Source: Cytophagaceae bacterium
GTDB taxonomy: Bacteria > Bacteroidota > Bacteroidia > Cytophagales > Cytophagaceae
Length of the DNA: 36,489 nucleotides
Direction: 5' to 3'
Assembly (NCBI GenBank): GCA_029237685.1
Contig: JAQZBV010000014.1
Span: forward strand, 1-36,489
A model generated the notes under the pieces. It saw nothing but the letters and a program-made list of their open reading frames with translations. It did no database searches and was not told the DNA's origin. Position 1 is the stretch's first letter. Each line of letters starts with the position of its first letter. A program made the translations under genes and the position numbers. Shown here piece by piece: positions 4,444-36,489 of the stretch.

Positions 4444-6765
4444 TTACTCCGCCGTTACCAGCTCGCCGCGTAATTGACGTACGGCTGACACCATATTTCT
4501 TATAGCCGCTTCGGTTTCCGGCCACTTGCGGGTTTTCAAGCCACAGTCAGGATTCACCCATAAATTTTGTTTAGGAATGACATCTAATGCTTTATGCAAC
4601 AAGAATAAAATTTCATCTGTAGAAGGCACCCGAGGAGAATGAATATCATAAACACCAGGACCGATTTCGTTCGGATAATTGAAGTTTGCAAACGCATCCA
4701 ACAATTCCATTTGTGAACGAGACGTTTCAATGGTGATGACATCCGCATCCATCTCTGCGATGTTGCTGATGATGTCATTGAATTCAGAATAACACATGTG
4801 TGTATGAATCTGCGTTTCATCTTTCACAGCCGATGCACTGATCCGGAAAGCTTTCACAGCCCAACTCAAATATACCGGCCAGTCTGCCTTGCGTATGGGC
4901 AAACCTTCACGAATAGCAGGTTCATCGATCTGTATAACTTTAATACCTGCTTTTTCTAAATCCGCTACTTCATCACGAATAGCCAAAGCAATTTGTAGAG
5001 TGGTCGTTTCCCTCGGTTGATCATCTCTTACAAATGACCATTGCAAAATCGTAACAGGACCGGTCAACATCCCTTTCATTAATTTTTTCGTTTTCGATTG
5101 CGCGTAAGCAGACCAATTCACGGTCATCGGGACAGGACGTTCAATGTCACCGTATATAATAGGAGGCTTCACACAACGGCTGCCATAACTTTGCACCCAT
5201 CCGTTTTGAGAAAAAACATAACCTGCCAGTTGCTCTCCAAAGTATTCGACCATGTCGTTACGCTCAAACTCTCCATGCACCAATACGTCGATGCCAAGCT
5301 CTTCCTGCCAGGTAATGGATTTATCAATTTCCGCTTTGATCTTTTGAACGTAATCTTCTTTAGTCAACTCCTCTTTTTTCAATTTTGCTCTCCATGATCT
5401 CACTTCATCTGTTTGCGGGAAAGAGCCGATTGTTGTCGTAGGGAAAAGAGGCAAGCCTAATGCCTTTTGTTGTTTCTTTTGCCTTTCCTTAAACACACTC
5501 AACCGTCTGTCGTCTTTGTCGGTCAATGCTTTGACCCGGTTTTTCACATGCGTCTTGTGAATCAATGGTGATATCTTGCGGCTTTCAATGGCTTGCTGAT
5601 TCACATTGAACACTTCAGGAGAAGCTATTCCTTCCGCAATTTTTTTGATGTCTATGAGTTCATTTATTTTTTGTTTGGCAAAAGCCATCCAGTTTTTAAT
5701 TTCCGGTTTGAGCACTTTTTCATCTTTCTCCAACTCCAAATCACAAGGTGTATGCAATAAAGAACAAGACGGCGCAAGGATGATGCGATCTGAACCAATG
5801 ACATCTATCGCTTTTTGAATAAAAGTTAGTGACTTTTTATAATCGTTCTTCCAAATGTTTCTACCATCGATGACACCCAAGGAAAGTATTGTTTTTGAAT
5901 CAACGAACGACGTAGACAAGATGTCTCCCAACTGAGAAGGACAGCGAATCAAATCAAGATGCAAGGCGTCTACCGGCAAGTTCGTAGCCAGTTTCAGGTT
6001 GTCACCGGTGCAATCAAAGTAAGTGGTGAGGATAAATTTCAGACGAGGAAATTGAGCACGCAGCTGTCCATAAGCAGCGGTATAGGCTTCTTTTTCCTGC
6101 TCGGTTAGGTCCATTGACAAATACGGTTCATCCAGTTGAATCCATTCCGCACCTTGGTCTTCTAAGTTTTCCAGGATTTGCGTATACACAGGTAAAAGAT
6201 TCGACAGCAATTCTATGCGGTGAAAATCTTTCTCTTTTTCTTTACCCAATAGTAAATAAGAAACGGGACCAATGAGGACCGGCTTGGTAAGAATTCCTAA
6301 ACGCTTCGCTTCTGAAAATTCCTGAATGGCTTTCGTAGAAAACAAGCGGAACGTTTGTCCCTTATGAAATTCCGGAACGATGTAATGGTAATTGGTATCA
6401 AACCATTTGGTCATTTCCATCGCGATCACATCCAATCCTTTCTTCTGATAGCCTCTTGCCATCGCAAAATAGAGATCTAGCTCCGTATTGGATTTGTCGG
6501 TGATGATGTCGTGGTAACGTTCCGGAATGGCGCCTGCCATGAGAGACATGTCCAGCACTTGATCATAAAAAGAGAAATCATTGGAAGGGATCCAATCGAT
6601 GCCGGCATCTTTTTGCAACTTCCAGTTGTAGGCTCGGATATCAGCGGCTACCTTTAATAAATCTGTCAGTGTTGATTGACCGGCCCAATAGGACTCATTG
6701 GCTTTCTTTAGTTCGCGTTGGTTTCCGATACGGGGATAACCAAGGTTATGGGTTAAAATCTGCAT
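4444..6765 (-). CDS. metE: Cobalamin-independent methionine synthase (5-methyltetrahydropteroyltriglutamate--homocysteine methyltransferase)
   Basis: Cytoplasmic enzyme making methionine from homocysteine and 5-methyl-tetrahydrofolate. 773 residues, slightly longer than the 753 of E. coli. The N-terminal barrel begins MQILTHNLGYPRIGNQRELK. The C-terminal catalytic barrel has the zinc ligands H656 and C658 (HTHMCYSEFND), E680 (ITIETSRS) and C741 (NPDCGLKTR). All four sit exactly 15 residues later than E. coli H641, C643, E665 and C726. It diverges from an Lrp/AsnC regulator across 154 bp carrying a long inverted repeat, so control by that regulator is likely. A PLP enzyme of the Cys/Met class lies beyond the regulator. 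Confidence 0.98.
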   Translation of the reverse strand: MQILTHNLGYPRIGNQRELKKANESYWAGQSTLTDLLKVAADIRAYNWKLQKDAGIDWIPSNDFSFYDQVLDMSLMAGAIPERYHDIITDKSNTELDLYFAMARGYQKKGLDVIAMEMTKWFDTNYHYIVPEFHKGQTFRLFSTKAIQEFSEAKRLGILTKPVLIGPVSYLLLGKEKEKDFHRIELLSNLLPVYTQILENLEDQGAEWIQLDEPYLSMDLTEQEKEAYTAAYGQLRAQFPRLKFILTTYFDCTGDNLKLATNLPVDALHLDLIRCPSQLGDILSTSFVDSKTILSLGVIDGRNIWKNDYKKSLTFIQKAIDVIGSDRIILAPSCSLLHTPCDLELEKDEKVLKPEIKNWMAFAKQKINELIDIKKIAEGIASPEVFNVNQQAIESRKISPLIHKTHVKNRVKALTDKDDRRLSVFKERQKKQQKALGLPLFPTTTIGSFPQTDEVRSWRAKLKKEELTKEDYVQKIKAEIDKSITWQEELGIDVLVHGEFERNDMVEYFGEQLAGYVFSQNGWVQSYGSRCVKPPIIYGDIERPVPMTVNWSAYAQSKTKKLMKGMLTGPVTILQWSFVRDDQPRETTTLQIALAIRDEVADLEKAGIKVIQIDEPAIREGLPIRKADWPVYLSWAVKAFRISASAVKDETQIHTHMCYSEFNDIISNIAEMDADVITIETSRSQMELLDAFANFNYPNEIGPGVYDIHSPRVPSTDEILFLLHKALDVIPKQNLWVNPDCGLKTRKWPETEAAIRNMVSAVRQLRGELVTAE

Positions 6766-6858
6766 AGCGATAGAATAATTTACTATGCAATTTTGACAGA
6801 TAAGATTTAAATTCCGCTTATTAGATAAAAACTAAGTAATTAAACCCTATATAATCAA

Positions 6859-6874
6859 TTATTATAGATAATAA
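6859..6874. promoter_or_regulatory. Local 7-2-7 palindrome in the lrp-metE operator
   Basis: TTATTAT-AG-ATAATAA is a perfect 7-bp palindrome with a 2-bp centre. It overlaps the left arm of the larger repeat 6864-6921. A TTATTAT half-site recurs at 6911-6917. Its size fits one Lrp/AsnC dimer site. Confidence 0.5.
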
Positions 6875-6921
6875 ATCTAAAAATATACTACTTTTAGCCC
6901 ATCGTTAGATTTATTATCTAT
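6864..6921. promoter_or_regulatory. Inverted-repeat operator between metE and lrp
   Basis: Arms 6864-6880 (ATAGATAATAAATCTAA) and 6905-6921 (its exact reverse complement) form a 17-bp perfect dyad with a 24-bp spacer. The right arm runs into the ATG of the regulator at 6920. The spacer contains the putative -7 element TACTTTTA. Arms flanking the promoter fit autorepression by an Lrp/AsnC oligomer, with metE as a second, divergent target. The regulator's identity is inferred from its position next to the site. Confidence 0.6.
6889..6896 (+). promoter_or_regulatory. Possible -7 element (TACTTTTA) of the lrp gene
   Basis: One mismatch to TAnnTTTG. It sits between the two arms of the dyad, 23 bp before the start codon. 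Confidence 0.4.
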
Positions 6922-7390
6922 GACAGTCTTAGACAAAACAGATATTGCCATCCTAAAAGCCTTACAGGAAAATGCGTTAATCACCACGAAAGAATTGGCG
7001 AGTAAGCTTCATCTCACCCCAACGCCGGTGTATGAACGCATCAAGCGACTGGAGCGTGAAGGATACATTGACAAGTATGTGGCGCTGCTGAACAAACAAA
7101 AACTGCATCGTGGGTTGATGGTGTTTTGCAATGTCACCTTAAAAGAACATGCGAAGGACGTTGGAAAAAACTTTGTAAAAGACATTGTAGCCCTTCCTGA
7201 AATTGTAGAATGCTACAACATATCCGGCGAATACGATTTTATGTTGAAGATCTTAGTCGCAGATATGCCGGCTTACCAGCATTTCGTCATGAATAAGTTA
7301 TCGACGATTAAGAATATAGGCAGTGCCCATAGTATTTTTGTGATGGGGGAGATTAAGAATTCGACTTCCTTACCTTTTGGAGAGATGTGA
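6920..7390 (+). CDS. Lrp/AsnC family transcriptional regulator
   Basis: 156 residues. The N-terminal winged helix-turn-helix (about 5-65) shows LDKTDIAILKALQENALITT, then KELASKLHLTPTPVYERIKRLEREGYI. The C-terminal ligand-binding RAM domain (about 70-145) has LPEIVECYNISGEYDFMLKI, typical of the family. Such proteins bind amino acids and regulate as dimers to octamers. It diverges from metE and precedes a Cys/Met-type PLP enzyme, so a methionine or sulfur amino acid effector is plausible; this is inferred from context only. Its start codon is embedded in the operator-like dyad 6864-6921, which suggests autoregulation. Confidence 0.93.
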   Translation: MTVLDKTDIAILKALQENALITTKELASKLHLTPTPVYERIKRLEREGYIDKYVALLNKQKLHRGLMVFCNVTLKEHAKDVGKNFVKDIVALPEIVECYNISGEYDFMLKILVADMPAYQHFVMNKLSTIKNIGSAHSIFVMGEIKNSTSLPFGEM

Positions 7391-8773: not shown

Positions 8774-9109
8774 TCATTTTTTGAATAGACCTGACCCATT
8801 TTTTGTGCAGCACTTTTAAGTGCTGCACGCTTATACTCACTGTTTATATTCTTTCTAAATTGATTGTTTTACTTAATAAACAGTAAAATAATATACTAAA
8901 GGCATAGAAGGCTCCGTTAAAAAATCAAACGAACCCACCGACTATGTAAAAACGCTCTACCTGTTAACCCAGATTATACATTAAAGTAATAAGGTTCATT
9001 TAAGCCATTCGTTTAAAAAATCTAATGATTGAATGATTTCCATGATACTTAATGCCTAAAGGATAAAAGTTTAATGCTTTGTATTTTGTTCCACTTAAAC
9101 TAACAGGTT
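8774..9109. other. Intergenic region with one hairpin, no gene seen
   Basis: 336 bp between two plus-strand genes. It holds the hairpin at 8805-8828, a weaker 9-bp inverted repeat ACTGTTTAT (8839-8847) / ATAAACAGT (8876-8884), and AT-rich DNA leading to the secreted protein at 9110. A TATTTTG about 25 bp before that gene is a near match to the -7 consensus. I recognise no small RNA. Confidence 0.5.
8805..8828 (+). terminator. Hairpin downstream of the PLP enzyme gene
   Basis: A perfect 11-bp stem GTGCAGCACTT / AAGTGCTGCAC with a 2-nt TT spacer. A T6 run comes before the stem rather than after it, so termination strength is uncertain. Confidence 0.5.
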
Positions 9110-18454: not shown

Positions 18455-18469
18455 GAAATAAAACTAACG

Positions 18470-18599
18470 GTCTAGCCCCTAAATCCCCTGAAGGGGACTT
18501 AATATTTACTAAATGAAAAAGCTCATCGCATACAATATGCAATGAGCTTTTTGTTTTATCACAGAACAAAGTCCCCTTCAGGGGATTTAGGGGCTAGAC
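18470..18599. repeat. 31-bp perfect inverted repeat enclosing a terminator
   Basis: Arms 18470-18500 and 18569-18599 are exact reverse complements over 31 bp. Each contains CTAAATCCCCTGAAGGGGAC, itself a small palindrome (TCCCCT-GA-AGGGGA). I recognise this CCCCT-GA-AGGGG element as a common intergenic repeat in Bacteroidota genomes. The enclosed 68 bp hold a complete terminator hairpin. Confidence 0.85.
18516..18552. terminator. Bidirectional terminator inside the 31-bp inverted repeat
   Basis: AAAAAGCTCATCGCATA pairs with TATGCAATGAGCTTTTT, one mismatch, 3-nt loop. T-runs lie on both strands. It ends aroA and the convergent gene at 18668. Confidence 0.8.
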
Positions 18600-18610
18600 T
18601 GATTGAAACA

Positions 18611-24697: not shown

Positions 24698-25303
24698 ATG
24701 AATAAAATACTCATACTCTTTGCTCATCCAAAATTTGAAAAGTCCAAAGCGAATCAGGCTTTGGTAAGTAACATCCCAAAAGATCCTTTCATTACCTTTC
24801 ACGATTTGTATGAAACGTATCCGGACTTTAACATCGATGTGGCTTACGAACAAAAACTTTTATCAGAACATCAAATTGTTGTCTGGCACCATCCCTTCTT
24901 TTGGTACAGTGCCCCTCCTTTGATGAAGCAATGGATTGACCTGGTACTTGATTTCGGTTGGGCATACGGGCCCGGCGGAAATGCCTTAGAAGGGAAATTG
25001 ATATTTAATACCATCACTTCCGGAGGACCTAGAGAAGTCTACAATACCGAAGGCTATAATCGATTTACGATCAACGAACTCTTAGCGCCATTCAATCAAA
25101 CGGCTTTCCTCTGCAAGATGAAATACCTTCCACCGTTTGCCATACAAGGCACACACCGCATCGCTCAGGAAGAGCTCGATAAAAAAGCGGCTTTGTACGG
25201 TCAGGTATTGCACAAAATGATTTACGAAGAATTTGATACCAACGACATACAACAATACGAGTTCATGGATCAATGGATCGAAGCTGTGAATGAACGTGTA
25301 TAA
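24698..25303 (+). CDS. KefF/KefG-like NAD(P)H quinone oxidoreductase
   Basis: 201 residues, flavodoxin-like fold. It begins with a phosphate-loop strand MNKILILFAHPKFEKSKANQ, then VVWHHPFFWYSAPPLMKQWI, DLVLDFGWAYGPGGNALEGK and TSGGPREVY, all typical of KefF/KefG/MdaB-type FMN or FAD quinone reductases. In E. coli such proteins bind and activate KefC or KefB. The KefC-like antiporter follows by 30 bp, supporting the same role here. Which of KefF or KefG it matches cannot be decided by eye. Confidence 0.9.
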   Translation: MNKILILFAHPKFEKSKANQALVSNIPKDPFITFHDLYETYPDFNIDVAYEQKLLSEHQIVVWHHPFFWYSAPPLMKQWIDLVLDFGWAYGPGGNALEGKLIFNTITSGGPREVYNTEGYNRFTINELLAPFNQTAFLCKMKYLPPFAIQGTHRIAQEELDKKAALYGQVLHKMIYEEFDTNDIQQYEFMDQWIEAVNERV

Positions 25304-27228: not shown

Positions 27229-27816
27229 ATGAATCCCATTCTGAATCAAAACCTATTTTTAGTCAAAGAACATGTCGGCATGTTCAAAGCGTCTAACAAT
27301 TTTGACATTTACAATCCTGCGACAAAAGAAATCGTGTTGACTTGCAGAGAGCCAAATTTAGGCTTTCTCACTAAAATTCTCCGCTTCACAGATTATAAGC
27401 GCATGACTCCTTTTGATATAGAAGTAGCAACGCCAAGCGGTGAAAGAATATTATCCGTAAGAAGAGGTGTTTCATTATTCGTGTCAACAGTAGAAGTATT
27501 TGATGAAAACGATCACCGTGTCGGAATATTCAAACAAAAGTTTTTCTCCATAGGTGGCAAGTTCAATGTACTCGACGACAACGAAAATATAATATGCACC
27601 CTACAAGGAAAATGGACAAGCTGGGATTTCAAATTCATGAAAGACAAAGAAGAATATGCGCATGTTACTAAAAAATGGGCCGGTATCGGAAAAGAATTCT
27701 TCACTACTGCTGACAACTATGTATTGGAAATCAAAGATACTGTGCCAGAAAATGATCCTTTGAGATTATTGGTTTTGGCTGCGGTACTTTGCATTGATAT
27801 GGTATTGAAAGAATAA
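27229..27816 (+). CDS. LURP-one/scramblase-like beta-barrel protein
   Basis: 195 residues resembling the LURP-one-related/phospholipid scramblase (tubby-like) fold: a 12-stranded barrel around a central helix. Diagnostic stretches are NQNLFLVKEHVGMFKASNNF, IYNPATKEIVLTCREPN, FDIEVATPSGERILSVRRGV, SVRRGVSLFVSTVEVFDENDHRVG broken into strands, and a hydrophobic final helix LRLLVLAAVLCIDMVLKE, typical of this fold. Biochemical role unknown in bacteria. It lies 17 bp after the antiporter gene and probably belongs to its operon. A TTAGTTG tandem tract starts one base after its stop. Confidence 0.8.
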   Translation: MNPILNQNLFLVKEHVGMFKASNNFDIYNPATKEIVLTCREPNLGFLTKILRFTDYKRMTPFDIEVATPSGERILSVRRGVSLFVSTVEVFDENDHRVGIFKQKFFSIGGKFNVLDDNENIICTLQGKWTSWDFKFMKDKEEYAHVTKKWAGIGKEFFTTADNYVLEIKDTVPENDPLRLLVLAAVLCIDMVLKE

Positions 27817-27817
27817 G

Positions 27818-27845
27818 TTAGTTGTTAGTTGTTAGTTGTTAGTTG
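27818..27845. repeat. Four perfect tandem copies of TTAGTTG
   Basis: A heptanucleotide repeated exactly four times, starting one base after the stop codon at 27816. It uses the same unit and strand orientation relative to the upstream gene as the tract at 9417. No inverted counterpart follows. Confidence 0.85.
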
Positions 27846-27880
27846 TTTTAAATATATTTCTGAATTTATCTTTCTATGCT

Positions 27881-29455
27881 ATGAGAAAAAAATGTTATAC
27901 ACTCCTGCTGATGATGCTCATGGCTGTATCAGCTCATGCACAAGTGCAGCTTTTATTGCCACCAACAGAACCGCAAAAGGCGGAACTCAAAAAACTCATC
28001 AAGAACTACGAAACGTATGTCAATACCATGACAAGCAAAACCGTAGCTACTGATGCCAAGAAATTAGCTTCGGTAAAATACATGAGAGAGAATTTGATGA
28101 AGGGAACGGTTTATTTCATCAATGATTTAGATACTACTGATACCAGTAAGAAATTTCCTTTTCTCACTTACATGAACAAGCTGGAAGGTTCTTATGGCGG
28201 AGGAAGCGTACATACTGTTTCTTCTACTTTGTTATTTGACAAAATCAAATTCGATCAATGGAGAAGATTCTATTATGCGGAAGTGAAAACGAGTGAGACC
28301 ATTCAGTGGAAAGAACTGGTAAATACTAAAAGGCTAGTCACAGATAGTGTTACAAAAGTAACAGACAGCATGACTGTGGTCGATACCCTTACGAGAACGA
28401 AGAACTTCAAATTAACCTTCTTCATTCGCTTTGACAAAATGGGCACAGGCTACTCCAATTACAAACTGTGGGCGATCACAGGGCCAGGTGAGATGCCTGA
28501 ATTACCACCGCTTGAACCCTTGCAACAGTGGTGGACTAGCTTATCACCAGAATGGAAAACTTCATTAAGTGCTTTAAGAAAGATTGAAGAATATCCGGCG
28601 GAAACGGATATAGAAAAATTAACTTATCAGCCTGAGTTGGATTTCAGCAATGCCGTGATGACTACTTATGAGCCTTTGTCCAAATTTACGAATGTTAAAA
28701 AGTTAACCATTGCAGGCGCTTCCATCAATAGCTTTGAACCGATCGCTAAGATGTCCGGTCTTCTGTACCTGGATATTTCCAAATCAAAAATAACATCCAT
28801 TGAAGGTGTTCAAAAGCTAACCAAGCTCGAAGAATTTTACTGCATCGGCAATAAATTAACGACCATCGCTCCAATTGCTACGTGCGTAAGTCTGATCAAA
28901 TTTAATTGTTCTGAAAATGAACTGGAAGACATTTCCGCGGTGAAAGACTTGATCAATCTGAAAGAGTTGAATGTTTCCCTCAATATCAAAATGAAAAACA
29001 TTGATGCGGTAAAAGGATTGGTGAACATGGAAAAAATTTCTTTCCGAAAAATTGAAATCAAAGATTTAACACCGGTTCAAAACATGCCCAACCTGGTGTA
29101 CCTGGATGCATACAATACAGGAGTAACTTCTTTGGAGCCTATCAGAAACATGCAGAAGATCTTTCATCTGGATTTGTCCAGCAATAAACTGACTACGTTA
29201 GATCCCATACGCAATTACAAATACTTATTGCGTTTGTACTTGAATACATCGAGTATACAGGATTATAGTATCATTGACAACTTTACTTTATTACGAGAGT
29301 TAGATATTTCAAACTGTCCGCAGATAAAGACTTTGGGAGGTATACATAAACTGGATTTTCTCACTTCATTAAAGTGTATCCATACCAGTATCGATAAAGG
29401 AGAGATTGCGCGGTTTAAGAAGAACCATCCGAATTGTGGAGTGACTTATTATTAA
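27881..29455 (+). CDS. Secreted leucine-rich-repeat protein
   Basis: 524 residues from the ATG at 27881 (MRKKCYTLLLMMLMAVSAHA); the frame is open 15 codons upstream into the repeat tract but without a signal-like start. Signal peptidase cleavage after AHA. Residues 25-230 are a unique domain with helices (PTEPQKAELKKLIKNYETYV) and beta strands. Residues about 245-510 hold roughly ten internalin-like LRRs of 21-23 residues (for example MSGLLYLDISKSKITSIEGV and MQKIFHLDLSSNKLTTLDPI). No sorting domain or anchor is visible at the end. It may mediate protein binding at the cell surface or in the periplasm; the partner is unknown. Confidence 0.88.
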   Translation: MRKKCYTLLLMMLMAVSAHAQVQLLLPPTEPQKAELKKLIKNYETYVNTMTSKTVATDAKKLASVKYMRENLMKGTVYFINDLDTTDTSKKFPFLTYMNKLEGSYGGGSVHTVSSTLLFDKIKFDQWRRFYYAEVKTSETIQWKELVNTKRLVTDSVTKVTDSMTVVDTLTRTKNFKLTFFIRFDKMGTGYSNYKLWAITGPGEMPELPPLEPLQQWWTSLSPEWKTSLSALRKIEEYPAETDIEKLTYQPELDFSNAVMTTYEPLSKFTNVKKLTIAGASINSFEPIAKMSGLLYLDISKSKITSIEGVQKLTKLEEFYCIGNKLTTIAPIATCVSLIKFNCSENELEDISAVKDLINLKELNVSLNIKMKNIDAVKGLVNMEKISFRKIEIKDLTPVQNMPNLVYLDAYNTGVTSLEPIRNMQKIFHLDLSSNKLTTLDPIRNYKYLLRLYLNTSSIQDYSIIDNFTLLRELDISNCPQIKTLGGIHKLDFLTSLKCIHTSIDKGEIARFKKNHPNCGVTYY

Positions 29456-29890: not shown

Positions 29891-30013
29891 AATTGTAATT
29901 TAGATTGGTTCCCAGTCACAGAGATCTAAAAAACTGTGCCATGCTCTCCGATCTGGAAGTAATCATACAAAGACCTTATAAATACTGAGCTTCAGCGTTA
30001 TTGAATAACCATC

Positions 30014-30043
30014 AAAAAAAAGACAGGCCGTATAGACCTGTCT
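30014..30043 (-). terminator. Terminator of the iron-uptake operon
   Basis: AGACAGG (30021-30027) pairs with CCTGTCT (30037-30043). On the minus strand it is followed by a T8 run. It lies 26 bp after the stop of the DUF4198 gene. Confidence 0.75.
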
Positions 30044-30068
30044 ATTTATCTCCACAATTGTATGAATA

Positions 30069-30776
30069 CTACTTATTATTAACCTCTGTATCAAAAGTAG
30101 CAATGTGCATTACAGCTTTGTATTCTTTGCCATTGTGAGTACCGGTTGCCTTTTCACGATAAGAAGCTTCCACTACATAAAGACCATTCCATATCGCTTC
30201 TACAGTAGCTTCTCCTGCCTTCGCTTCTAAATGTTTCATCCAACCTGATGGTGCACCCACAGCTAATGATGCATCAGCAGCTACTTGATTTTTAAAAAGC
30301 GCCTTTACCTTTAACTCTTTGCCTTTTACATTAGTTTGAATAGCAAAGTCACTGAACGTAGCCCACTCCTTGCCAGTTACAGCAGTTCCTACCTGAACTT
30401 TAGCCGCTGCATAATAGATGTATTTTGTTGTGCCGAATACTTCCGCCACATCGTGCTTCACCGATAAAGTATAAACACCGTCTTGAGTAGGAGTAAAAGA
30501 AGTTGTGAAACCATTTCCGACTGCAGTTTTGGTCAATTCTTTTTGAGAACCGTCAGGCGCGGTTAGCCAAATAACAGCTTCAGCCGTATTGCTGAACCAT
30601 TTCTGAGTAGAATCTCTTTCATTCTCTCCATAGCCACCAAGAAATATTTTAGCAGTATGCACTTGACCAGATTTTCCTTTAGCAGAAGTTTCAATCCAGA
30701 TATTATGAGCAAAAGAAACAGTGCTTATAAATAATAAACAAAGAGGGAATAATAGATTTTTGATTATAGTTTTCAT
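30069..30776 (-). CDS. Exported DUF4198-type protein of the iron-uptake operon
   Basis: 235 residues. Signal peptide MKTIIKNLLFPLCLLFISTVSFA; the mature protein begins HNIWIETSAKG, so a histidine is exposed at the new N-terminus, a feature often linked with metal binding. Two beta-sandwich halves follow: AEAVIWLTAPDGSQKELTK, DGVYTLSVKHDVAEV, VKGKELKVKALFKNQ and WNGLYVVEASYREKATG. DUF4198 members are periplasmic and commonly accompany metal or PepSY-type transport genes; the molecular role is unknown. It is the last gene of the operon, 11 bp after the PepSY gene. Confidence 0.85.
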   Translation of the reverse strand: MKTIIKNLLFPLCLLFISTVSFAHNIWIETSAKGKSGQVHTAKIFLGGYGENERDSTQKWFSNTAEAVIWLTAPDGSQKELTKTAVGNGFTTSFTPTQDGVYTLSVKHDVAEVFGTTKYIYYAAAKVQVGTAVTGKEWATFSDFAIQTNVKGKELKVKALFKNQVAADASLAVGAPSGWMKHLEAKAGEATVEAIWNGLYVVEASYREKATGTHNGKEYKAVMHIATFDTEVNNK

Positions 30777-30787
30777 GATATAGATTT

Positions 30788-32050
30788 TTATTCAATATTA
30801 ACAATAGACGGGACTCTTCGCAACTTCACCGGTTGCGGTTTTGAAATTATTGGCTGCGTTTTTACTTTGTGTGTTTTCTTGTTCTTATCCTTTGGATCTT
30901 TACCCTTCTTTTTCTTCTTTCCCCACCAGATAATAAAACCTGTAATCGGAAGACTTGCACTTACAAGGCTCGCAAGAAATGCCAATACTTTTCCCGGGAA
31001 ACCTAATATACCGCCAACATGGATATCGTAACTGTACAAATGGATCTGACGATGCAAGCGCATCTCTTCTGCATGACCTTCAAACAAAGTTTTGCCTGAA
31101 AACTCTTTTCCTGAGTATTGATCAAAATACCTGTTCTTTGTATTGTAAAAAGTTCCCGGACGGTAATTGATCGTTGTTGAAATGATATCAGAAGCTGCTT
31201 TGCTCGGGAGACTCATGCTCATAGAAGCATTTTCCGGTTTTACTTTGAACTCGTTCCACCAGATCTGATCGATATGATTTACGGGAACAAAAGTAGAGAC
31301 TAAGACCGTGGTATCACTTAAAGGAGCTTTCGCATGCACTTCTGATTTACCTCCTGAAAATCCCCAATACAAGCCATCCGTAAACCACTGCAATCCGAAT
31401 GTCATACCGGTCAAGGCAATCATCAAAGCAATGACCATCGCATAAAATCCTGGAACGTTGTGCAAATCATAATTGACACGTTTCCATTTGGCTGACCATT
31501 TAATTTTAAAGCTTTTGTCTTGGTTACTTTTCTTCCAATTCTTTGGCCACCAAAGTACCAATCCTGTGATTAACAATACTACAAATATTACTGTAGCGTA
31601 AGACACTATAGGTTGTCCGATGTCTCTTGGAAGCCAAAGGTTAAAATGTCCCTCTAAGATAAACCTGAAAAAATCTCCGCCTTCGGCTTTCACATATAAT
31701 ACTTTGCCAGAATAAGGATCTAAATAAACCTGCGTGAATGATCTTTTCGGTTTGCGTGTAAACGAACTGACGACAACGCTTTTTCCAGGTTCAGGATACA
31801 TGATGCCTGTTACTTTTTTACCCTTCAACTCCGCCTTTGCCGCATCTATCAATACAGACGGAGGTAAATAGGCTTTACCTGTTACGTATTCCGTGTATTG
31901 ATAAGGCTCCGTAATGCTTTTAATCTCTTGTTCAAAAGCCAGTATACAACCTGTAATACTTACAACAACAACCACTATACCCGAGGCTAAACCAAGCCAA
32001 AGATGGAGCCATGCATTGATAGGTTTGAAGGGGGGGAACTTGAGCTTCAC
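30788..32050 (-). CDS. PepSY-associated inner-membrane protein (XusC/PiuB-like)
   Basis: 420 residues with about four membrane segments: 15-40 (LHLWLGLASGIVVVVVSITG), about 150-170 (VSYATVIFVVLLITGLVLWW), about 205-225 and about 350-375. PepSY-like periplasmic parts lie between (VSSFTRKPKRSFTQVYLDPY, SGKVLYVKAEGGDFF). Conserved histidines (LHLW, GHFNLW, DLHNVPGFY, HRQIHLYSYDIHVGG) may hold haem, as in the FoxB/PiuB family of siderophore reductases. The basic tail is unusual (KKKKKGKDPKDKNKKTHK). The start is GTG at 32050; no ATG is available before the first membrane segment. A 7-G run lies within codons 5-7. A 19-bp hairpin precedes the gene. Confidence 0.88.
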   Translation of the reverse strand: MKLKFPPFKPINAWLHLWLGLASGIVVVVVSITGCILAFEQEIKSITEPYQYTEYVTGKAYLPPSVLIDAAKAELKGKKVTGIMYPEPGKSVVVSSFTRKPKRSFTQVYLDPYSGKVLYVKAEGGDFFRFILEGHFNLWLPRDIGQPIVSYATVIFVVLLITGLVLWWPKNWKKSNQDKSFKIKWSAKWKRVNYDLHNVPGFYAMVIALMIALTGMTFGLQWFTDGLYWGFSGGKSEVHAKAPLSDTTVLVSTFVPVNHIDQIWWNEFKVKPENASMSMSLPSKAASDIISTTINYRPGTFYNTKNRYFDQYSGKEFSGKTLFEGHAEEMRLHRQIHLYSYDIHVGGILGFPGKVLAFLASLVSASLPITGFIIWWGKKKKKGKDPKDKNKKTHKVKTQPIISKPQPVKLRRVPSIVNIE

Positions 32051-32069
32051 AGTTTTATATATTCAATGA

Positions 32070-32110
32070 ATACTTTACCATTTGAATATACTATTCAAAT
32101 GGTAAAGTAT
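32070..32110. promoter_or_regulatory. 19-bp perfect AT-rich hairpin inside the iron-uptake operon
   Basis: ATACTTTACCATTTGAATA and its exact reverse complement are separated by only 3 nt. It fills the gap between the DUF4374 lipoprotein gene and the PepSY gene. There is no U-tract after it on the minus strand. It could stabilise the upstream mRNA segment, attenuate downstream expression, or be a DNA-binding site. Confidence 0.65.
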
Positions 32111-32117
32111 CAAATTA

Positions 32118-33359
32118 TTAATTCTTCATTTTAAACATTCCCATTACATTGGCACCTTCTATTTTAGTCCCTCTGGTTCCGGTTTTATTTACAATATCCA
32201 CTTCATAGATATACAGGCCTTCGTCGGGACTATTTATTTTTACATACAATTTACCCGTTTCTTCATCTTTGATATGATGCAACTTAGAAGGTCCTCCTGT
32301 ATGGAGAGGTACCCCACTGATATAATCTACAGTTTCATTGTACAAATCAATGACAGCAAGTTTTACACTTCGCTCAGACCACTTGTCACCAGCTACATGA
32401 TCAGTGAAACTATAAATCTGAGCCAAAGCCTTACCATTTCCTAAATAAGCGGCATGTGCCAATTTATACCCTCCAGTAACGCTTTGTACGTTAAAGAAAT
32501 ACGAATTATCAAACTCTGTTTCTCCATCTTTAATCTTTAGAATACCAGAAGACTCCGTACCGATAGAATAACCAGATGAAATAGCTGTTGTAGAAATGGT
32601 GTACAAATCACCATTTTCTGTTTTTAAAATTCCGTTATCTCCAGCATACACACCAATAGGGCCTGTTCTGTTATCACGAATTACTTTTTCAAATACTAAA
32701 CCTGGATAAGAATAGATAGCAATGTAAGCTGAGTCTTCATGCGTAGAGGCGAAACTTGAATTCTTGATTTGGAAAAAGGGTGCAAACAATTTATCACCTC
32801 TTACTACCAAACTAGAGAAATAAGCCTGCTCTCCATTGCGGTTTGTCAAGTCGAAAACATTTGTGGTAACTGGTGCAGCGACAGACATTGTATTGACATT
32901 TATTTTATAAAATGTAGCCAATTCTGCTGTACCATTACGCGGGATATTCATGCCTAACATGGTATTATCATCAATCGTAGAATACATATGCAATCTAGGA
33001 ATAGAGAACTGACCTGCCACTTTCAATCTTAAGTTTTCGTCTTGTGTATAGACAGGCACTTTATTATCGTCTGTGTAAGTGATACTCATCAATTTATTTC
33101 CTGCTTTTGAATAAAAGCGAAACCCTCTTTGTTCAATCCCTCTGCCATTCAAAGAAATCGTACCAGTGCTCAACGTATCTTGCTGAACAATATAATCTGT
33201 CGTCTCACTGGCAGAACCTGCTGCTCTAACTGCCAATACAAATTTCCCTGAATCGGATGGTGTAGTTGCTTCTTCATCTGATTTTTTACAAGAGACAGAC
33301 GCTATTGTGACTGCCGTGATCATCATCCATAAGGATAATTTTATACTGCTTTTTTCCAT
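32118..33359 (-). CDS. DUF4374 surface lipoprotein (XusB-like)
   Basis: 413 residues. The lipoprotein signal ends TIASVSC24, followed by KKSDEEATT, an acidic stretch after the cysteine typical of surface-exported Bacteroidota lipoproteins. The mature protein is all beta with repeated blades (FVLAVRAAGSASETTDYIVQ; TMLGMNIPRNGTAELATFYK; LYTISTTAISSGYSIGTESS; VKLAVIDLYNETVDYISGVP), consistent with a beta-propeller. DUF4374 proteins include XusB of Bacteroides thetaiotaomicron, which binds ferric enterobactin outside the cell. It starts 5 bp after the TonB receptor gene, the same order as xusA-xusB-xusC. The ligand here is inferred. Confidence 0.87.
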   Translation of the reverse strand: MEKSSIKLSLWMMITAVTIASVSCKKSDEEATTPSDSGKFVLAVRAAGSASETTDYIVQQDTLSTGTISLNGRGIEQRGFRFYSKAGNKLMSITYTDDNKVPVYTQDENLRLKVAGQFSIPRLHMYSTIDDNTMLGMNIPRNGTAELATFYKINVNTMSVAAPVTTNVFDLTNRNGEQAYFSSLVVRGDKLFAPFFQIKNSSFASTHEDSAYIAIYSYPGLVFEKVIRDNRTGPIGVYAGDNGILKTENGDLYTISTTAISSGYSIGTESSGILKIKDGETEFDNSYFFNVQSVTGGYKLAHAAYLGNGKALAQIYSFTDHVAGDKWSERSVKLAVIDLYNETVDYISGVPLHTGGPSKLHHIKDEETGKLYVKINSPDEGLYIYEVDIVNKTGTRGTKIEGANVMGMFKMKN

Positions 33360-33364
33360 AACTA

Positions 33365-35773
33365 TTAATTTTCATTTGATCCGGTTCCGCCGGATACGGT
33401 TTTACTTATAAAATACCTGAGTTTTACAGCGAATGAACGTCCTGGTTTTGGTAACAGAAAATTATCGTACAATTCACTGTCCGCAACGTTTCGGCATTCA
33501 AATGAAACATTGAACATGCCGTCATTCAAAGAATAAGTCAAGCTAAGATTATGAGAGATTTGTTGAGGAATTTTATTCTTGTCTCCTTTATTCCCAAGAC
33601 CAGGCCAATACAGGTAATAAAACTGTACATAGTTTAAAGTCCAGTTAAGACTTAACCGCGTCTTTTTAAATCCGACGTTGTTAAATCCCACTCCTGCATC
33701 TGCATTTCCAAACAAGAAAGGAATGTTAGGAATTTGCTGTTTATACACCGGACTGATGCCAGCAACTCCTGATTCTCGCTCGGTCATATTGACAAGCTTT
33801 TGATATGTTCCGTTTATACCTAAATGAAACAGCTGTTTATAGGAATAACGTATTTCACCATCCAGACCTTTTGTTTCTACATTGCCTTGATTTGTAGCAC
33901 GAGAATTAGGTCCACTCAGCTCATAACGAATAAAGTTTTCACTATAGCGATAAAGCAAATTAGCCTCTAATGTAATTCTGTGTTTTTCATAGAATGTTTT
34001 ATTCAGCAATAATCCCACATTCACATTACTACTTTGTTCAGGTTTGAGTTCATAATTCGAAAGTCGGTTTACCGCGTCTCCGAAAATCTCTTCTGATTCC
34101 GGTAAACGAAATGTATTTTCATAAGACCCTTTTACCTGCAGATAAGGGAAGACAAAATAAGTCGTGGCAATACCAAAACCATCCTTAGCCATCGATGCTC
34201 TTACCGTTTCCTGATGAGGGTTCACATAAATATCAACGCGTTGTGAAGTTTGTGTTCCCTGGAAAAACTTCTTATAAAATAGCGTAGTCTCCCATCGCCT
34301 CTTGTAATCAAACTTATAGGCGACCCCAATTATATTCTTGGAAAGAATCATAGGGTGCTTGTAAGACTCGTTATTGGGATTTACTTCATCACTACCCTTT
34401 CTTGAAAAACGGTTAAATGAATAGTTTAAATTAAAAGAATGTGTTTTGTTGATTTCATAACTGAGGTTTGCATTAGACATGGCAAGGTTGTCAGCAAATT
34501 TGTACAACGTTCTGGATTGTTCACCGGAAATGGCTTCAGGCTTTGGTATGTAATTTCCATACCAATTGTAAGTGCGGGCAGATGTATCTACCGTTTGATT
34601 TTCACCAGTTTTATAAGCTCCGTAAAGTGTTAGAGAAAGCCCTTTAACAAATAGGTCGGACTTCTTATATTTTAAAGTACCAATTAATGTTTTGCTTGTT
34701 CTGTAGCGTTGGCCGTAAACCCGGTCTACTACTGCACCTGTTTGGATATCCTGTTTATTATTGGAAAGAATGACACCGGCCAATAATTTATCTGCGTATT
34801 TTTTATTGACCACACCAACTTCGACTTGCGCAGTCTCTGATCTGTATTTATCATGAAACCTTCTTAGTCTTTTCTTTTGTGGATCCAGCGTTCCGTCAAA
34901 TCCATTTAGAGGAACTTCCACATTCACCCAATAATTATTATCGGAATAGTTTTGAAACAAATTGGTTAATACCGTCAAACCAGTTTTCTTGTCTGTATAG
35001 CCTGCATTGATCGAACTTCGGTGCGTATTAAATGAGCCATAAGAATAAGATGCATCAAGGTAATTTCTCACTTTTTGATTGGTGACAACATTCACCGCGC
35101 CTCCTAATGCATCAGATCCTAACCACACAGGTACTACGCCTTTGTAAATTTGAATACCATCGGCAAGGTTAATAGGAATATTATTCAGTGTGAGCGATGA
35201 GCCAAAATTATCCATGGGTATTCCATCCAAAAATATTTTGACTTGCTTGCCAGAAAATCCATTCAATGAGAAATTGAAATTAGATCCTAATCCTCCATCC
35301 TCACGAATACGAACACCCGTAGTTCTATTCAATACTTGATTGATATCTGCAGTGCTGTTGTGTAGAGGTTTAGCATCTATTGTTGAAACGGTGAATGCCG
35401 ATTCCTTTATTTTTTGCGTTTCATTTTTTCCTGTTACCGTTACTTCATTTATCGCTTGCTCTTCTTCTACCACTAACTGATGAAGTTTAGCATGCTCTCC
35501 TTCTTTTATGGAAACCTTTTGATGCTTGGTGTTATGCCCTATGTATGAAATAGCAACAGTATACTCACCAGCGGGAATATCTTTCAATATAAAATTACCT
35601 TTGTCATCTGTGTTGGTAGCAAAAGATGTCCCTTCTAAGATGACTACTGCTTCTATCAAAGGATCGCCTGTATTGGATTTGGCATGCCCTGATATAGAGC
35701 CCAGGGTTTGACAAAAAGCAAATACGGGAAGAAACGAAATTACTCCGGTTAAGAGTAGCTGTTTGAAATTCAT
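33365..35773 (-). CDS. TonB-dependent outer-membrane receptor (XusA-like)
   Basis: 802 residues. Signal peptide MNFKQLLLTGVISFLPVFAF-CQ; carboxypeptidase-regulatory-like domain about 25-110 (ISGHAKSNTGDPLIEAVVIL); TonB plug about 125-240 (VLNRTTGVRIREDGGLGSNF, VKIFLDGIPMDN, PVWLGSDALGGAVNVVTNQK). A barrel of about 560 residues follows, ending near RSFAVKLRYFISK with a short Ser/Gly-rich tail beyond the usual terminal aromatic strand. It is not a SusC type: no SusD partner is present. With the DUF4374 lipoprotein and PepSY protein downstream it should import an iron-siderophore. The promoter and a Fur-like site lie at 35814-35843. Confidence 0.93.
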   Translation of the reverse strand: MNFKQLLLTGVISFLPVFAFCQTLGSISGHAKSNTGDPLIEAVVILEGTSFATNTDDKGNFILKDIPAGEYTVAISYIGHNTKHQKVSIKEGEHAKLHQLVVEEEQAINEVTVTGKNETQKIKESAFTVSTIDAKPLHNSTADINQVLNRTTGVRIREDGGLGSNFNFSLNGFSGKQVKIFLDGIPMDNFGSSLTLNNIPINLADGIQIYKGVVPVWLGSDALGGAVNVVTNQKVRNYLDASYSYGSFNTHRSSINAGYTDKKTGLTVLTNLFQNYSDNNYWVNVEVPLNGFDGTLDPQKKRLRRFHDKYRSETAQVEVGVVNKKYADKLLAGVILSNNKQDIQTGAVVDRVYGQRYRTSKTLIGTLKYKKSDLFVKGLSLTLYGAYKTGENQTVDTSARTYNWYGNYIPKPEAISGEQSRTLYKFADNLAMSNANLSYEINKTHSFNLNYSFNRFSRKGSDEVNPNNESYKHPMILSKNIIGVAYKFDYKRRWETTLFYKKFFQGTQTSQRVDIYVNPHQETVRASMAKDGFGIATTYFVFPYLQVKGSYENTFRLPESEEIFGDAVNRLSNYELKPEQSSNVNVGLLLNKTFYEKHRITLEANLLYRYSENFIRYELSGPNSRATNQGNVETKGLDGEIRYSYKQLFHLGINGTYQKLVNMTERESGVAGISPVYKQQIPNIPFLFGNADAGVGFNNVGFKKTRLSLNWTLNYVQFYYLYWPGLGNKGDKNKIPQQISHNLSLTYSLNDGMFNVSFECRNVADSELYDNFLLPKPGRSFAVKLRYFISKTVSGGTGSNEN

Positions 35774-35813
35774 TTGTATAGGAGATAAATACTGGGATGG
35801 AATCCCGAGTGGC

Positions 35814-35832
35814 CGTTAGAATAATTCTAACG
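35814..35832. promoter_or_regulatory. Fur-family-like 7-1-7 operator
   Basis: CGTTAGAATAATTCTAACG is a perfect 19-bp palindrome. Its core TTAGAAT-A-ATTCTAA has the 7-1-7 architecture of Fur/PerR boxes: each half differs from the PerR half TTATAAT at one position and from the Fur half TGATAAT at two. It lies directly downstream of the -7 element, over the expected transcription start, an ideal place for repression under iron-replete conditions. Confidence 0.65.
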
Positions 35833-35835
35833 ATG

Positions 35836-35866
35836 CAAAAGTAAGTGCGATAACCGCGGCTCACAA
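35836..35866 (-). promoter_or_regulatory. Bacteroidota promoter of the iron-uptake operon
   Basis: Minus strand: -7 TACTTTTG (35843-35836) is an exact TAnnTTTG, with an ATTG about 20 bp upstream as the -33 element. The predicted start near 35829 lies inside the palindrome 35814-35832 and leaves a leader of about 55 nt to the ATG at 35773. Confidence 0.65.
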
Positions 35867-35974
35867 TACTTCATAAATTGTATTTTAACAGCTTTATTCA
35901 GGTATGATGCCTACCCTTTTTAAGGTATAGTAAAAATTAAACTCTGGAACTATTTAATCTAATTAGCAAAAAAA

Positions 35975-36489
35975 TTAATGAGCGTTAAATACATAATATT
36001 GCAACAGTGCCATGATCTCCATCAGAAAAGCCACCCCAATATGTATCGCACAACCACCCAAAATACTCCGCGAATACAAAGCAATAACGCCTAAAATATA
36101 TCCTCCGAAAATAGAGCCAATGGTCTCCGACCAATCACCAATGCTCCTCTGAATAATAATTCTACGGTGACAAAATCAAACAGGTAAAACACTTCATGTA
36201 GAGCACTCATTTGCATGCGTGACAAACCAAATACTTCATTTACTTTCCAGGGTTTGAAAGTCGGATAGGTATCCAGAAAATCGGGTTGAAAGGAAGCCCA
36301 GTAAATAAGCGGAGTCATGATCAATAAAAATCCCGCATAAATCTTATAGTCAAAACCCTCTATAGATAGCCCGTACAGTCCCTTCTCCTGTTTGTCGTAT
36401 ACGTATTTCAAAATGATGAGCGGAATAATATAAACAAAAGTAGGATAAATGTTCGTGACTATTTTTAATAAAAAATACTGTTCATCGTA
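35975..36489 (-). pseudogene. CPBP-family intramembrane metalloprotease, internal deletion and frameshift
   Basis: The frame entering from the right edge is membrane protein of the CPBP (CAAX protease/bacteriocin-processing) family, reaching the first active-site motif ELLFRGALVIG at about 36130. It then stops at 36091. Shifted by two bases from 36127 downward, the other frame continues with the normal C-terminus: ETIGSIFGGYILGVIALYSR, SILGGCAIHIGVAFLMEIMA and LLQYYVFNAH, ending with TAA at 35975-35977. Roughly 25-30 residues that should lie between, including the FxxxH-type second catalytic motif, are missing. Out-of-frame deletion with loss of a catalytic histidine makes this a pseudogene. 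Its start lies beyond the window. Confidence 0.75.

Follow-up and report, generated by a model that had tools for sequence, protein, structure and literature searches.

The right end of the window, by which we mean the whole stretch of DNA analysed (36,489 bp, the entire contig C163 of a draft genome), carries part of a gene for a CPBP/Rce1-like membrane protein whose reading frame is broken by a missing segment of 79 bp. Judging from sequence comparisons, we consider it probable (roughly two chances in three) that the organism, probably an uncultured Bacteroidota bacterium, has an intact, ordinary chromosomal copy of this gene and that the copy has been wrongly assembled. An assembly error is more likely than inactivation because the gene is split between contigs and because the same draft has deletions in citrate synthase and in two other genes. 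The draft genome, G000, comprises 4.02 Mb in 199 contigs and is 92.9% complete.

On the minus strand, positions 36489 to 35975 encode the C-terminal part of the protein, split over two frames. The codons from 36489 to 36130 give the middle part (YDEQYF...VELLFRGALVIG), which runs off the contig end; it corresponds to the same-genus orthologue L003 from residue 124 onward and is 80% identical to it in amino acids across residues 124–245. Read further, this frame has an out-of-frame extension (RRPLALFSEDIF; 36129–36091, minus strand) to a premature stop at 36093–36091. A second minus-strand frame, from 36127 to 35975, reads ETIGSIFGGYILGVIALYSRSILGGCAIHIGVAFLMEIMALLQYYVFNAH followed by the natural stop, and is the C-terminal part (ETIGSIFGG...HIGVA...YVFNAH), collinear with the C-terminus of the relatives. 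The junction lies at 36128–36131 (minus strand), as placed by alignment with L003, L004, L005 and L006. The orthologues in three same-genus genomes have open frames of 319, 315 and 328 amino acids, with 27 codons from VIG (or IIG) to ETIG (or ETLG), against two bases in the window; the missing bases amount to 26 codons and one base, from the Gly of VIG to the Glu of ETIG. In the relatives this piece reads L-S-S-I-M-G...Y-A-F-L-H-F-G-K-P-M-A. Motif 2 has the pattern FxxxH, and its histidine (H264, in YAFLHFGKP), which is invariant in all 16 aligned relatives, is gone from the window with the 79 bp; the motif-3 histidine (HIGVA) is retained. The segment is kept in 3/3 same-genus genomes, and no second genome of the window's own species was found among the genomes searched. 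A sequence-only reading of this stretch had described a CPBP intramembrane protease with an internal deletion and frameshift that removes the segment bearing the second catalytic histidine. As an observation this is correct and beyond chance: there are two frames at the junction, the coordinates are right, and the size, which that reading had left to a comparison with close relatives, is 79 bp against the three same-genus orthologues.

Both frames are open near the junction, as they would be if programmed frameshifting joined them or if a short form of the protein were functional. Either is barely credible. The 26 lost codons belong to the conserved core and could not be restored by any frameshift, and inspection by eye shows no slippery run where the frames meet. 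An in-frame version of the short form, which the sequence-only reading had named as a finding that would speak against inactivation, occurs in none of the 24 matched relatives.

The same reading had also proposed that a small junction bounded by ATTGG and CCAAT is the scar of a recombination event. The element in question, TGGTCTCCGACCA at 36121–36133, with a 5-bp stem and a 3-nt loop, is unremarkable coding sequence. The window contains 52 stems of five bases with a loop of three, of which this one (TGGTC/GACCA) is just one, as well as 10 ATTGG/CCAAT word pairs at most 20 bp apart. Both ATTGG words encode Ile-Gly, in VIG and in ETIG, and the relatives have Ile-Gly or Leu-Gly at those positions. 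The 13-mer is present in 6/204 loci, all six of them stretches of this contig end, and the flanks of the two breakpoints share at most about three bases in the relatives (by eye). We reject a recombination scar, given the coding origin of the words and the 52 like hairpins.

The assignment to the Rce1-like/CPBP family (Pfam: PF02517), first made from the letters alone, is borne out, narrowly, by the orthologue L003, which scores 26.5 bits against a cut-off of 22.4. The window fragments searched as proteins match no family at E ≤ 1, and the window read across its stops scores 16.0 bits against PF02517, below the cut-off. The sole NCBIfam matches of the orthologue at E ≤ 0.1 are to archaeomyxosortase MrtA (NF040590; 37.5 bits) and to an ABC-permease/CPBP family (NF041647; 26.4 bits); their cut-offs of 200 and 435 bits are far above these scores, so that the similarity is one of fold family only. 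A family-alignment search of solved structures gives no match at E ≤ 1. The gene is matched in 24 of the 38 other genomes searched, and in 23 of these the frame is uninterrupted and 308–352 amino acids long. The exception is the orthologue in G018 (L021, contig C9), which lies on a 1.2-Mb contig and has a frame of 166 amino acids; by eye, a frame change precedes it and no N-terminal part lies upstream, and it seems a more credible real pseudogene.

The motifs of this subfamily depart from those of the family. The motif EExxxR is defined in PMC11980579 and PMC6588880. In the first of these, a water molecule is bridged by E146 and H188 of MrtX, just as happens in MmRce1, and the oxyanion hole is made up of the HxxxN residues; as the residues are numbered E146 and E147 there, it follows that E146 of MrtX is the first Glu of EExxxR. 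Motif 1 of the window is VELLFR, with the second Glu and the Arg kept and the first Glu replaced. This Glu is likewise replaced in all 19 relatives fetched out of the 24 matched (VELLFRG, SIEFLFRG, ALEVFFRG, etc.), and motif 3 is HxxxA, with Ala for the Asn of HxxxN, in the window and in 19/19 relatives fetched. The subfamily therefore resembles PF02517 in the passing score of L003, in the second Glu and the Arg of EExxxR and in both conserved histidines, which the relatives keep, but differs from it in the first Glu and in the Asn of motif 3. The motifs suggest that its members may be inactive proteases or proteases of altered chemistry, possibly pseudo-proteases. The word "catalytic" for the second histidine is a putative assignment from motifs, not established even for the intact gene. 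The paralogue on contig C80 of the same genome has the canonical EELVFRG and HFINN.

The gene is broken at a second place. When G000 was searched with the G003 protein, the first 109 codons were found to end contig C21 (C21:24648–24977; the contig ends at base 24978). The tail of C21 and the right end of the window are collinear with two same-genus genomes, G003 and G001, and by either map are separated, in frame and with no overlap, by a gap of 23 bp: the end of C21 maps to base 8960 of L035 (G003) and to 15339 of L036 (G001), and the window, reversed, begins at 8936 and 15315 respectively. An assembly break thus lies inside the CPBP gene, about 360 bp from the 79-bp deletion. The sequence-only reading had called both flanks of the deletion intact and well conserved; in the alignment they are indeed clean and conserved, but the end of the contig truncates the gene as well. 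Contig ends in this draft show no general k-mer overlap in the 26 sampled contigs taken as complete, where one overlap of 28 bases was seen, and the long matches among the ends of C147 and C151 probably stem from runs of N.

Non-synonymous differences from G003 amount, per site, to 0.110 for the N-terminal part (on C21), 0.098 for the middle part and 0.080 for the C-terminal part; we compare non-synonymous differences only, since synonymous sites are near saturation and dN/dS against G003 is uninformative. There is no sign of relaxed selection and no decay past the break, which fits a very recent deletion and an artefact alike. That the loss is "recent" had been argued from the 50 codons that remain open downstream, a pattern that an artefact predicts equally, so that recency is not established.

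Could the deletion be genuine and recent, either in the organism or in one strain of it, leaving a pseudogene with an undecayed downstream frame, and with the damage to the C80 gene as an independent event? We regard this as rather unlikely, though it has points in its favour. The flanks are otherwise clean and conserved, the gene may be dispensable, being undetected in 14 of the 38 other genomes of the order, the G018 orthologue with its 166-aa frame seems degraded inside a 1.2-Mb contig, and stop and frame flags are, overall, no more frequent in the draft than elsewhere (see below). Against it, the contig break already splits the gene, both CPBP genes are uninterrupted in the three same-genus genomes as far as the contigs reach, and internal deletions also occur in citrate synthase and another gene of the draft. 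Inactivation as a biological fact, as it had been put, is accordingly not supported for a gene split over two contigs in a draft where citrate synthase and two further genes also have deletions; the sequence-only reading had itself named assembly collapse as something that would speak against it. If the deletion were real, it would be a further small pseudogene, in this case of a membrane protein with a patchy distribution.

Here we give the other deletions in the same draft. The citrate synthase gene on contig C5 (family NF004126; orthologue 589.8 bits) has a 38-bp deletion with a frameshift, and the parts on the two sides of it match the G003 protein at 90% and 99% identity. A break at this place is hard to believe, since citrate synthase is a core enzyme and the gene is otherwise near-identical. 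On the same contig, a gene for a 601-amino-acid protein with no NCBIfam match has a 188-bp deletion with a frameshift; the two genes lie on the minus strand at 6057–7302 and 12463–14077 of L059 (G000:C5). G000 also has a divergent citrate-synthase-like gene on contig C116 (35% identity, 414-aa frame), with counterparts in the three relatives, and given this gene a true loss of the main citrate synthase is unlikely but not impossible. The third gene is the CPBP paralogue on C80 (L034:357–1184, i.e., G000:C80:31856–32683), in which 110–111 bp are missing by comparison with the same-genus genes and an in-frame TAA stands at the join.

This paralogue is the only other PF02517 gene of G000 at E ≤ 1, so that the intact second CPBP copy for which the sequence-only reading advised looking is not to be found: the sole candidate is also broken. 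It is tempting to see in this a correlated real loss, in which both CPBP-type proteases were lost by separate internal deletions after a function they share (e.g., the processing of exported or lipid-linked proteins) had been abandoned, a hint that these distant relatives have a common dispensable function. In keeping with such a loss, the genome has just two PF02517 genes at E ≤ 1, each with an internal deletion, and in each of the three same-genus genomes two genes exceed the cut-off, neither showing an interruption within the extent of its contig (the second CPBP gene of G003 runs off its contig). The two proteins are, however, only distantly related (18% identity in a full-length comparison), we know of no pathway shared by them, and like deletions occur in unrelated genes of the draft. 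We hold correlated loss to be decidedly improbable; under the reading of the breaks as assembly artefacts, that both CPBP genes are struck is a coincidence.

How far do such deletions set this draft apart from its relatives? We compared a sample of 738 kb of G000 with 1.16 Mb of G003 and with shorter pieces from G001 and G002, the stretches being picked by contig number, size or convenience and the G000 sample containing 5675 N in three runs. With G000 as the target, deletions of at least 15 bp gave five rows in 176 comparisons (113 with G003, 23 with G001 and 40 with G002), of which four break an open reading frame and represent three distinct genes. An in-frame deletion of 144 bp (contig C7, 68% identity) counts as a row that does not break its frame. 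For the C80 gene, rows came from G001 and G002 but not from G003, whose copy runs off the contig, and the CPBP gene of the window, too incomplete for the scan, gave none. With the other genomes as targets there were two rows in 355 comparisons and no broken frame. Both rows come from a single gene, which in G000 is longer by 13 in-frame residues, and one of them was labelled as a frameshift, the gap having been shortened to 34 by BLAST. Within the two sets of comparisons (176 and 355) there is overlap from genome to genome, and neither total counts distinct genes. For G003 alone, frame-breaking deletions number 2 in 113 genes, against 0 in 120 in the reverse direction, a weak excess of deletions in G000 that is suggestive only.

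At the protein level, flags for a stop, a frame change or an indel of at least 10–12 amino acids were raised in 8/119 cases with G000 as the target and in 15/255 with the others as targets; the same flags in a larger comparison with G003 gave 8/111 (G000 target) and 5/116. Many of these, judged in bulk, are single stops or stem from spurious-looking open reading frames, and differences in start site probably figure among them. The draft of G000 is not generally worse than those of its relatives; what stands out is its medium-sized deletions, that in citrate synthase above all. For deletions of at least 15 bp, breaks occur in unrelated, normally indispensable genes of G000 and not in those of the relatives, as an artefact would have it; no such contrast holds for stop or frame flags in general, relatives and G000 being about equal.

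In the artefact reading, which we prefer, the assembler or a gap-closer would have joined non-adjacent sequences in stretches of thin or variable coverage, and the bases between them, 38 to 188 per place, would have been dropped. The CPBP gene would then have been struck by one such mis-join plus one contig end. Assemblers do not normally create junctions without read support, which counts against this reading. According to Cooley and Wright (2024, PMC11017572), many putative bacterial pseudogenes arise through errors of assembly. The present case is like theirs in having a frameshifted gene, a fragmented draft and other conserved genes broken; it differs in that their abstract concerns frameshifts and internal stops in general, while the deletions here are of tens of bases. 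Conserved genes of this draft are broken by internal deletions of between 38 and 188 bp, so caution is due where its sequence, or that of comparable metagenome bins, seems to show a gene loss, and such losses need confirmation at the level of reads.

A few other features of the window differ among the same-genus genomes or recur in them. A stretch of about 6 kb (29914–35963) separates the CPBP gene from the next conserved block; at the matching place in G003, G001 and G002 it is missing and the two blocks adjoin, so that it may be either a gain in G000 or a loss in the relatives. We take its genes to encode a TonB-type receptor, a PepSY-like membrane protein and their neighbours. At 27805–27881, in the gap between an open reading frame ending at 27816 and one starting at 27836, there is sequence that is matched over about 35–65 bp at many places in G003 and at several in G001; it may be a short dispersed repeat. 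An Rfam search of the window gave no matches at the gathering score. The intergenic stretch 18468–18601, which contains GTCTAGCCCCTAAATCCCCTGAAGGGGACTT, forms a palindrome: two arms of 33 bp flank a terminator-like hairpin (z −16.4). Stretches like it, about 130 bp long and often matching on both strands, are found in all three same-genus genomes, and it looks like a MITE- or REP-like dispersed repeat.
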